DNA of 64,000 nt. It comes from Candidatus Methanoplasma termitum. Its GTDB lineage: Archaea > Thermoplasmatota > Thermoplasmata > Methanomassiliicoccales > Methanomethylophilaceae. A program made the position numbers and the translations under genes. The DNA is taken from contig NZ_CP010070.1 of NCBI RefSeq assembly GCF_000800805.1, positions 744,001 through 808,000 on the forward strand, given 5' to 3'. Below are positions 27,874 through 52,919 of the stretch, one piece after another (positions within the stretch are counted from its first letter, which is position 1; the number at the start of each line of letters is the position of its first letter). Under the pieces are notes generated by a model. The model worked only from the letters and a program-made list of their open reading frames with translations, did not search any database and was not told where the DNA came from.

Positions 27874-27893
27874 GTACTTTCGGGTACTTTCGG
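27874..27893 (+). repeat. 3' element GTACTTTCGGGTACTTTCGG, copy 1
   Basis: A tandem pair of TACTTTCGG units 11 nt after the aspS stop codon. The identical 20-mer occurs downstream of arcS (53060-53079, minus strand) in the same orientation relative to the gene. It may be a shared 3' end or processing signal; function unknown. Confidence 0.5.
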
Positions 27894-27941
27894 CCACCCC
27901 CCAAACAACTTTTTATTCTATCACCATAGATAAGGTTCAGC

Positions 27942-50633: not shown

Positions 50634-51512
50634 TCAGAACTGATCGAACAGTGATGATTGTTTACTTTTAGGTTCGAATTGCTTAAGATATCCGAAAACA
50701 TCGTCTGTTTTGTAAAGGATATTATGTTCTTTGCAGACCTTTGTGAAAATGCTCATCAGCCTAGGGTTGTCGGGGCTGTTGCACGAGTATGACTCTCCGT
50801 ATGTATCGATGTATCTCTCCTTCATGCCGGGAAAGAGCTTGTCGAGATTTTGGTAAAAGTATTCTCTATCCCCCTCCCTCAGAGTCACGCCGAATCCAAA
50901 GCACAATATTCCTTTGACATCCGCCTCGATGCAGTAGTCGAGCAATCCTCTAAGGTTCTCTTCCGTGTCGTTTATGAATGGCAGGATCGGACAGAGCCAG
51001 ACGACCGTCGGTATCCCCTCCTCTTTCATTCTCATCAGTACCCTGAACCTCTCATATGTTGTGGATACGTTCGGTTCTATCTTTTTACAAAGCTCCTCGT
51101 CGTACGTTGTCAAAGTGACCTGTATCACACATCTGGCCTTTTTGTTGATCGCTTTCAAGAGATCCAGATCCCTTAAAACGCGTGATGACTTCGTTATGAT
51201 GGAGACCCCGAACCCGTTCCTTTCGATGACGGAGAGGCACTGTCCTGTCATCTGCAGTTCCTCTTCTAACGGTATGTAGGGATCGCACATTGCTCCCGTA
51301 CCGACCATACATTTGCTTCTTTTCCTTTTTAGCTGATCTTCCAGGATCTGCGGCGCATTACGTTTTACTTCTATATCCTCAAAATCATGTTCCATCCTGT
51401 AGCACTTGCTGCGGCTGTCGCAATAGATGCAGCCGTGGGTGCAGCCCCGGTAGATATTCATCCCATTGTTGGGGGACAGTATGGTCTTATAGTCGGCGTA
51501 ATGCATTTCCAT
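50634..51512 (-). CDS. Radical SAM protein, SPL-like family
   Basis: 292 residues. The iron-sulfur motif CxxxCxxC is at Cys24, Cys28 and Cys31 (RGCTHGCIYCDSRS), typical of the Rv2578c/spore-photoproduct-lyase-like family in archaea and anaerobes. Most of the chain forms the radical SAM barrel. True SPL function is doubtful; these proteins are generally of unknown substrate. Convergent with pheA. Confidence 0.85.
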   Translation of the reverse strand: MEMHYADYKTILSPNNGMNIYRGCTHGCIYCDSRSKCYRMEHDFEDIEVKRNAPQILEDQLKRKRSKCMVGTGAMCDPYIPLEEELQMTGQCLSVIERNGFGVSIITKSSRVLRDLDLLKAINKKARCVIQVTLTTYDEELCKKIEPNVSTTYERFRVLMRMKEEGIPTVVWLCPILPFINDTEENLRGLLDYCIEADVKGILCFGFGVTLREGDREYFYQNLDKLFPGMKERYIDTYGESYSCNSPDNPRLMSIFTKVCKEHNILYKTDDVFGYLKQFEPKSKQSSLFDQF

Positions 51513-51679
51513 CGGCCCTTCTTTGCAGTTAATGAATGTGGTCCATCCTTATTGCGTTCGGTGATTTGTAACGGATGTACGTGCGCTGTACTTAAATATC
51601 TGGATTCGTCCGATCACTACCAAATGGGGTATTTCTACTGCTGGCTATTTTATCTGAAACACATCACGAAAAGTGCCAG

Positions 51680-51951
51680 TGGATAGGGAGCCGGAAGTGC
51701 CGGCTCTCTAAGGCGTGGAACACCCGGACCATCGGGGTTGGTAGGTGATAATATCGCTAACGAAGCCTGGTGTATCCGGGTAAGGATATGCTTCGGTCCC
51801 TTGGTGTTCGAGATTATTCTCGAACCACCGTAAAGCAGAAGCGGGTGTGATCCCATCTCATATATCCGGCCCCTCTTATGAGGAGTCGTTAGCCATATCA
51901 CCGCTATTGACAAGATTTCACAGCAACAAAAACCTATGCTATGGTTTTTTT
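51680..51951 (+). ncRNA. Unassigned structured RNA candidate with T-tract terminator
   Basis: A gene-free region with dense complementarity. Stem 1: GGGAGCCGG (51686-51694) / CCGGCTCTC (51700-51708). Long-range stem 2: GGTGATA + GCTAAC (51744-51750, 51756-51761) / GTTAGC + TATCACC (51888-51893, 51896-51902). Stem 3: GGTGTTCGAG / CTCGAACCACC (51803-51812 / 51819-51829). Also ACCCGGA (51722-51728) / TCCGGGT (51775-51781), which would cross stem 2. It ends in a hairpin AAAAACC-N8-GGTTTTT with a run of seven T. A TATA-like CTATTTTATC lies near 51645-51655. It lacks the consensus of SRP RNA (GGAAG...AGCAGC) and RNase P RNA (GAGGAAAGTCC). Confidence 0.55.
51928..51951 (+). terminator. Hairpin plus T-run ending the RNA candidate
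   Basis: AAAAACC (51928-51934) and GGTTTTT (51943-51949) enclose TATGCTAT, and the run of T covers 51945-51951. T-runs are the usual archaeal termination signal. Confidence 0.6.
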
Positions 51952-52040
51952 CGTACGGGCGCATATGCGCCTGGTGAAAACCCGCTGAGCGAAGTGATCC
52001 GTCCCCTTAGTGATTAATATACCCTTGTCCATCCCGAGTC

Positions 52041-52919
52041 ATGGATTCCCCGCTGGTAACGGTAAAAAGATTTTTCATCGGAGTTTTGCTGGGGATCATT
52101 TCAGCCATACCCGGGATAAGCGGCGTTATCATCGCCGTTACGCTGGGAGTCTACGAACGTCTGGTAGAGGACCTCGCACATCTCAGGCACAAGATCGTGG
52201 AGGATTTCTGGTTCCTTTTGACGTTAGGTCTCGGCGTTGTTGTCGGCGTGGTCATAATTTCCTATGTCCTGACAGATGTTCTGGACAAATACATGATACC
52301 GGCGATGATGCTGTTCTTCGGAATGATCTTAGGCCAGCTTCCGCAGCTGTGGAAGTTCACCCTGCCGGAGGTCAGATCGTCAAGTAAAGACTATGCCGCA
52401 TTGGTCGTCGGAGTGGTGTTGATGGTCCTCCTGCTCTTGCTGCGCATCAATGTCGGATCCGTGGAGTACGATCAGGCCACGCACAGCCTCCAGTGGATAT
52501 TGCTTATGGTCATCATAGGCATAATCTATGCAGTTTCGCACATCGCCCCGGGGATAAGCGGTTCCACCCTGCTTTTAGCATTCGGTCTGCTGGTCCTTCC
52601 GTTAGAGGTGATCAAACATCATGAACTCGTTTTCCTTTTGCCTCTTGTGATCGGTGTGATCGTCGGTCTCATCGGTTTTGCGAAGGTCGTCCACTATTTA
52701 CTGAACAAATACAGGAAGCCCGCATACATGATGATATTCGGTTTTGCCATAGGTTCGATCTTCATTGTGTTGTGGGAGACATATGAGTCATACAACGGCT
52801 CCGACAACGGGATGATGAATCTTGCCATCGGGGTTGTGACATTCATCATAGGAATTATTGTAAGCTTGTGGCTCTCCAAAGTGAGCGGCAAGACCTATGA
52901 AGAGAATGCCGTTAGGTGA
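52041..52919 (+). CDS. DUF368 membrane protein, probable polyprenyl-phosphate transporter
   Basis: 292 residues with about eight membrane helices in two inverted halves, each marked by a PGISG motif (residues 24-28 and 170-174). The DUF368 family (PopT) has been shown in bacteria to return undecaprenyl phosphate across the membrane. By analogy this archaeal protein may flip dolichyl or polyprenyl phosphate used for surface glycosylation; that is inference. It is monocistronic, with a possible terminator just downstream. Confidence 0.85.
   Translation: MDSPLVTVKRFFIGVLLGIISAIPGISGVIIAVTLGVYERLVEDLAHLRHKIVEDFWFLLTLGLGVVVGVVIISYVLTDVLDKYMIPAMMLFFGMILGQLPQLWKFTLPEVRSSSKDYAALVVGVVLMVLLLLLRINVGSVEYDQATHSLQWILLMVIIGIIYAVSHIAPGISGSTLLLAFGLLVLPLEVIKHHELVFLLPLVIGVIVGLIGFAKVVHYLLNKYRKPAYMMIFGFAIGSIFIVLWETYESYNGSDNGMMNLAIGVVTFIIGIIVSLWLSKVSGKTYEENAVR

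Follow-up and report, generated by a model that had tools for sequence, protein, structure and literature searches.

A gene-sized gap in the genome of Candidatus Methanoplasma termitum, a close relative of which is the termite-gut MAG WRNL01000039.1, probably contains a member of a multi-copy family of structured micro-mRNA genes that stand alone and encode stress-regulated microproteins. The window that we analyzed is a stretch of 64,000 nucleotides of this genome, within which the gap lies between a divergent radical-SAM gene (50634-51512, minus strand) and a gene for a membrane protein that resembles an undecaprenyl-phosphate translocase (52041-52919, plus strand). In the scheme that we propose, each copy would be transcribed from its own promoter into an RNA of about 250-300 nt, comprising in order a pseudoknotted 5′ leader hairpin, a strong Shine-Dalgarno site, a frame of 25-31 codons, two hairpins and the end of the transcript. 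Stress-type regulators would activate transcription: in about a quarter of the family the one that acts on radA and other DNA-repair genes as well, and in the window copy another. Because of the folded leader and the frequent near-cognate start codons, translation would stay low or be conditional. The effector would be the microprotein, a predicted beta-sheet.

An earlier note on this DNA had described the gap as a block with a possible structured RNA and a promoter-like A/T box ahead of it, and this is borne out. The fold of the region 51668-51955 is more stable than that of shuffled sequences (z = -6.7), with none of 200 shuffles being as stable, and a TATA-like box precedes the RNA. Transcription of the window copy would begin near 51670-51677. 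The features of the copy are listed in Table 1; the upstream element, the Shine-Dalgarno-like site and the tiny frame had gone unnoticed in the earlier note, as had the existence of other copies.

Table 1. Features of the window copy, in window coordinates
Feature	Position	Strand	Basis or remark
Upstream conserved element GTCCGATCACTACCAAATGGGGTATTTCTACTGCTGGCTAT	51608-51648	+	Probable operator, partly palindromic (TACC..GGTA)
TATA-like box TATTTTAT	51646-51653	+	Read from sequence
P1, hairpin of the 5′ leader, with a pseudoknot between internal and apical loops	51675-51739	+	CM alignment of window; family covariation; pseudoknot swap test
Pseudoknot, GGGAG with CTCTC	51686-51690 with 51704-51708	+	CM alignment
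Shine-Dalgarno-like site GGTAGGTGAT	51740-51749	+	6/7 match to GGAGGTG
Tiny ORF IANEAWCIRVRICFGPLVFEIILEPP, ATC GCT AAC ... CCA CCG TAA, 26 codons plus stop	51753-51833	+	Frame alignment with paralogues; coding test
3′ hairpin Ha (family form xxxCC-aCGUUAc-GGxxx)	51848-51867	+	Window copy degenerate, with three non-standard pairs
3′ hairpin Hb, CGGCCCCTC-TTAT-GAGGAGTCG	51867-51888	+	CM alignment; helix 7, 94.7% of family cells paired
Terminator-like hairpin with T-run, AAAAACC-TATGCTAT-GGTTTTTTT	51928-51951	+	Read by eye

Searching 61 related genomes at the DNA level, we found two paralogues in the same genome, at 582606-582794 (78% identity) and 194029-194193 (74%), together with one further copy in the genome G001. 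The window copy was thus tied to its paralogues through sequence identity alone, before any model was made, and the alignment of the paralogues reaches 60 nt upstream of the start that the earlier note had given. The four copies were used to build a covariance model, R1, with which about 100 sites were located in 33 of 147 Methanomassiliicoccales genomes. When read, these matches revealed a common plan that was not visible in the first four copies: a 5′ hairpin, the sequence AGGAGGTGAT, a short frame and two 3′ hairpins. The first structure, obtained with RNAalifold from the four sequences and used in R1, was wrong for P1 and has been replaced by that of the family. A second covariance model, R2, was built from an alignment of 67 diverse copies (A4), and gave at least 183 matches in at least 57 of the 147 genomes; these counts are lower bounds, only the best candidates per genome having been scored. 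A single-copy orphan RNA is rejected by the paralogues and by the 183 model matches.

The window copy is a member of the RNA family defined by R2, with its covarying P1, Ha and Hb. It matches the whole model with some non-standard pairs, giving 103.3 bits and E = 2e-33, where E-values from the short Infernal calibration are rough and a match to any of the training sequences, of which this copy is one, is by construction. It is a divergent member, with several non-standard pairs in P1 and Ha, and because of this divergence and the broken pairs it could be weakly functional or declining.

The conserved fold of the family consists of a pseudoknotted 5′ hairpin, P1, and two 3′ hairpins, Ha and Hb. 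Covariation was computed for the 67 copies of A4 with a hand-set structure, using five measures and 500 shuffles. In these copies 86.6% of the cells are paired, compared with 77.2% after shuffling, and there are 253 double changes against 79; none of the 500 shuffles reached the observed value for any of the five measures. Double changes occur in 26 of the 35 pairs, and controls in which the partners were slid gave only 31-51% pairing. Five pairs of Ha covary strongly across the family, examples being GC 32/AU 28, UA 38/CG 21 and CG 36/UA 19/AU 5/GC 2. In P1 the internal loop is complementary to the apical loop, forming the pseudoknot in such combinations as GGGAAG-CUUCC/CUUUC, GGAGAG-CUCUCC and GGUGAG-CUCAC. 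On swapping, the loop motif of the same copy matches over 4.59 contiguous pairs, while 200 swaps gave no more than 4.41. Of all the helices the pseudoknot is the least strong (68.9% paired), in part because the subfamilies differ in its register.

The helices predicted from the single sequence fared unevenly. The idea of a crossing helix is borne out for the family by the pseudoknot, but a long-range helix closing about 160 nt forms no part of the conserved structure. The local stem, GAGCCGG/CCGGCTC, is present beside P1 in the window copy and would compete with it, but it does not belong to the conserved structure either. The hairpin with a T-run at the end of the block can be seen by eye, but it was not flagged by a mechanical scan for consensus terminators. 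The homologues and covariation that the earlier note had proposed to seek were both found, in the Methanomassiliicoccales, but a conserved protein neighbor was not.

The known large RNAs do not fit the block, as had been supposed. A search of the window with Rfam 15 at the gathering threshold found only tRNA-Gly, and the block gave no match at a permissive threshold either. Scans of 14 loci that have consensus-like copies gave no hit with E up to 0.5, and nine more loci gave none. Archaeal RNase P RNA is rejected as an identity, since the gene for this RNA sits elsewhere in the genome (C1:630441-630730); there is no match to RF00373 at the block. A literature search found no paper on structured RNAs of the Methanomassiliicoccales. 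By comparison with Rfam and Pfam, the RNA family is new to Rfam and its microprotein is without a Pfam match; a human-gut study (PMC8040213) reports five archaeal structures.

Within the genus there are up to 11 R2 matches per genome, and the source genome has 11 (lower bounds). Further matches occur here and there in the family's other genera and in one genus of another family (G041), and a single weak, partial match was found outside the order among 400 genomes of the class. The neighbors of the copies are unrelated and lie in both orientations, the downstream gene being on the opposite strand in 41 cases and on the same strand in 36, and no protein neighbor is consistent across the copies. 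Some copies are in tandem (G009:C138, G012:C54, G001:C35 and G030:C42), and in three pairs of loci (L095/L097, L073/L115 and L077/L117) the site and neighbors are kept across species. Upstream of priL there is an intact copy in G001 and a shortened copy in G005 (L030/L145), while at the priL locus of G010 (L032) the promoter element alone is present, now driving another gene. Judged by sequence, these three loci are stages in the loss of a copy at one site.

Between the 5′ and 3′ hairpins, ahead of the frame, lies the strong Shine-Dalgarno sequence AGGAGGUGAU. The family consensus AGGAGGTGAT is complementary to the 3′ end of 16S rRNA, and exact GGAGGTG is present in 67 of 103 copies. In nearly all copies a frame starts directly 3′ of this site and closes at a matching stop after 25-31 codons. 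We compared 26 independent pairs of copies of 68-89% identity, including the window copy. Differences at codon positions 1, 2 and 3 number 144, 82 and 172; there are no stops in the frame, compared with 63 and 28 in the other two. The BLOSUM score per changed codon is +1.92 in frame versus 0.38 and -0.33 in the others, so that substitution is conservative in this frame only. The five closest copies, including that of the window, vary at 12, 6 and 16 sites by codon position. The frame, with frame-specific purifying selection and a conserved stop, is under protein-level selection. Frames were assigned automatically, and a few of the copies appear to be broken (L114, L108 and L069).

AlphaFold2 with 82 peptides predicts a three-stranded beta-sheet of 30 amino acids with a mean pLDDT of 95.1. 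For the window peptide it predicts a two-stranded beta-hairpin with an unordered N terminus, with pLDDT of 88-92 over the last 20 residues. A Foldseek search with the 30-residue model gave generic sheet matches and no significant relative; seven peptides had no match in Pfam, and one submitted to PADLOC gave nothing.

The start codons are unusual. ATG, GTG or TTG is found within 17 nt after GGAGGTG in 51 of the 103 copies, and the other 52 have none. Of the copies, 62 share the commonest register; in these the codon five bases past GGAGGTG is ATC in 17, ATA in 13, ATG in 11, TTG in seven, GTA in five and TTA in three, with nearly nothing else. The valine and leucine codons at this position are all GTR and TTR, which are in the minority elsewhere (p about 5e-4 and 3e-7). 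If the position merely required a hydrophobic residue, then GTC/GTT and CTN, the dominant valine and leucine codons inside the frames, would be favored, yet none of these occur. So the constraint on this position is that of a start codon in which the third base may vary, or something equivalent to it. In at least 14 copies a stop lies upstream in the frame and no canonical start comes between; translation of these copies would require a non-canonical start. The window copy has no canonical start 3′ of its Shine-Dalgarno site; it has the near-cognate ATC at 51753, the family start position, and an in-frame TTG at 51738-51740. Translation is not assured, because around half of the copies, including this one, lack a canonical start.

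The best TATA-like words, and a peak of A+T, lie about 90-100 nt 5′ of the Shine-Dalgarno site across the copies. The sequence ACTTTCGG is present upstream in 25 of the 103 copies, where the shuffled maximum is four, and is part of a module ACTTTCGG-N4-ATTCGG-N-GACCCCC-TATA. A looser pattern of this module occurs in the upstream regions of 26 of the 103 copies against a background of 1.1%. The strict pattern gives 28 sites in the genus, compared with none for a reversed control; about half of the sites precede copies of the RNA family, and the rest lie ahead of radA (four), RmuC-type, RPA-like, Vsr, DUF1016 and BRO genes. In full or shortened form, the module is present at every radA gene of the genus, 17 in 17 genomes. 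By pattern search in the source genome, the module precedes XPD-like helicase, RmuC, RadA, RPA and YhcG-type nuclease genes and two of the RNA copies. The sharing of one promoter module between copies and repair genes suggests control by DNA damage, and we infer that some copies would be induced by it, with a role for the microprotein in stress.

A DEAD/ResIII helicase gene inside the window is also preceded by the module, and is likely to be a member of the DNA-repair regulon. The radA-type motif TTTCGGCCACCCC with a tandem GTACTTTCGG is found at 27888-27900 (plus strand), about 41 nt 5′ of the helicase ORF, whose product we take to be Hef-like. In the genome G000 radA-type promoters of DUF1016, BRO/KilA-N and other genes (L237, L238, L240, L245, L248 and L249) are followed by leaders of 160-270 nt, and similar stretches such as AAACGGGTCTCCG are common to at least L237, L238 and L240; these leaders are possibly a second structured leader family.

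By its sequence, the link to DNA repair holds for other copies and not for the promoter of the window copy, where the radA-type module is absent and there is a different upstream element. This element, TCCGATCACTACC-N6-GGTATTTC, is found upstream of the window copy and, nearly identical, upstream of its two closest paralogues and in G001. It also lies ahead of ordinary coding genes, namely a protein-coding ORF at L088:2879 and, in a short form, a gene in G010; the conserved 40 nt at the 5′ end are for this reason a promoter element, and we rejected them as a part of the RNA. At L088:2879-3047 the element precedes an ORF beginning MGKLADKTIVIGLGSPIMSDDAVGL, the product of which presumably resembles a hydrogenase maturation protease; a 42-residue fragment of it had no match in Pfam. 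This site may represent a second regulon tied to the RNA family. Other upstream regions differ again. An ACATGTA palindrome (e.g., AACTGCATACATGTAGTGC) is a candidate operator upstream of L092, L095, L096, L097 and L067, while TCCCGATATGTTTATTTCGG is common to the upstream regions of L070, L141 and L084, copies in another genus, which suggests lineage-specific promoters.

How else might these data be explained? The earlier note had proposed an independent non-coding RNA gene. The gene is indeed discrete, independent and structured, but it belongs to a family, and the block is very probably not simply non-coding because a conserved tiny coding sequence, complete with ribosome-binding site, makes up its middle third. 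A purely non-coding RNA, with a frame that is a by-product of RNA constraints and AGGAGGUGAU serving to bind or titrate ribosomes, would account for the strong covariation, for the copies without a canonical start and for hairpins that extend through the reading frame too. Yet it would not explain why conservative substitution and freedom from stops are confined to one frame with a conserved stop position, why the family alignment yields a confident protein fold, or why the codons at the start position are biased, and we consider it unlikely. A cis-acting leader of the downstream gene, whether riboswitch or attenuator with a leader peptide, would also place a pseudoknotted leader before a ribosome-binding site, and the window copy does lie upstream of a gene on the same strand. 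But the downstream genes are unrelated, with no consistent same-strand gene, and the RNA ends with hairpins and a T-run in the window copy, making this reading scarcely credible.

The many copies, the tandem arrays and the patchy presence among species might indicate a mobile or selfish repeat spreading through genomes. Against this, the protein is under purifying selection and the RNA shows compensatory changes, several copies are at the same place across species, and the tailored promoters are held in common with repair genes. Four pattern scans of viral contigs found no match to the family, and phage and plasmid records had no similarity to the window copy; an origin from these sources is rejected, and a mobile repeat is very improbable. 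A type I-like toxin module, in which a toxic microprotein is restrained by the mRNA structure and a postulated antisense RNA until freed by DNA damage, would fit the tiny proteins, structured leaders and multiple copies, a part of which are in the DNA-repair regulon. Its precedents are in E. coli: tisB is induced in the SOS response (PMC8145889), and the SOS gene dinQ encodes a small toxic peptide with a single membrane helix (PMC3567139). However, AlphaFold2 predicts beta-sheets and not the single membrane helix of DinQ, and no membrane helix was found. We regard this reading as unlikely, and favor stand-alone micro-mRNA genes for stress-regulated microproteins.

These micro-mRNAs would work most like the bacterial SOS-controlled small-peptide mRNAs. 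Common to both would be very small proteins, mRNA structure that limits translation and, for a part of the family, control by DNA damage. The TisB and DinQ proteins have 29 and 27 amino acids. The present family differs in being archaeal, and in its pseudoknotted leader, strong exposed Shine-Dalgarno site, near-cognate starts and many copies under different promoters. We have not filed it with the SOS peptide mRNAs because a sheet rather than a membrane helix is predicted, and no antisense RNA is known. The E. coli gene for IF3, infC, has an AUU start and is regulated through this non-AUG codon. There too the third base departs from AUG and a good Shine-Dalgarno site lies ahead, but in the present case the feature is repeated throughout a family of tiny genes, includes GUA and UUA, and has no known link to an initiation factor. 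In Sulfolobus a DNA-damage response element, ANTTTC, is bound by Orc1-2 (PMC9738581). The radA-type module opens with ACTTTC, which fits this element, and likewise lies 5′ of the TATA boxes of repair genes, but it is a longer composite motif (ACTTTCGG..ATTCGG.GACCCCC) in another phylum; the agreement is a lead and not a test, since a match to a single hexamer may arise by chance. The family has the same covariation-type support as the large structured RNAs of bacteria and archaea found by comparative genomics (PMC2864571; PMC8040213), several of which are also multi-copy, but it matches no Rfam model.

Our analysis brings to light two families, one of RNAs and one of microproteins, that are absent from Rfam and Pfam and have been overlooked by gene callers, with up to eleven occurrences in the 1.5 Mb genome of a gut methane-producer. 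More tentatively, the Methanomassiliicoccales might possess a large new family of micro-mRNAs controlled by DNA damage or stress, with beta-sheet microproteins, near-cognate starts altered at the third position (AUA, AUC, GUA and UUA) and a pseudoknotted leader, as a convergent archaeal counterpart of the SOS-induced peptides. One promoter motif joins the archaeal repair genes radA, RPA, XPD-like and RmuC, and would provide a handle on the wiring of the euryarchaeal DNA-damage response. The recurrent near-cognate starts would open non-AUG initiation in archaea to direct test.
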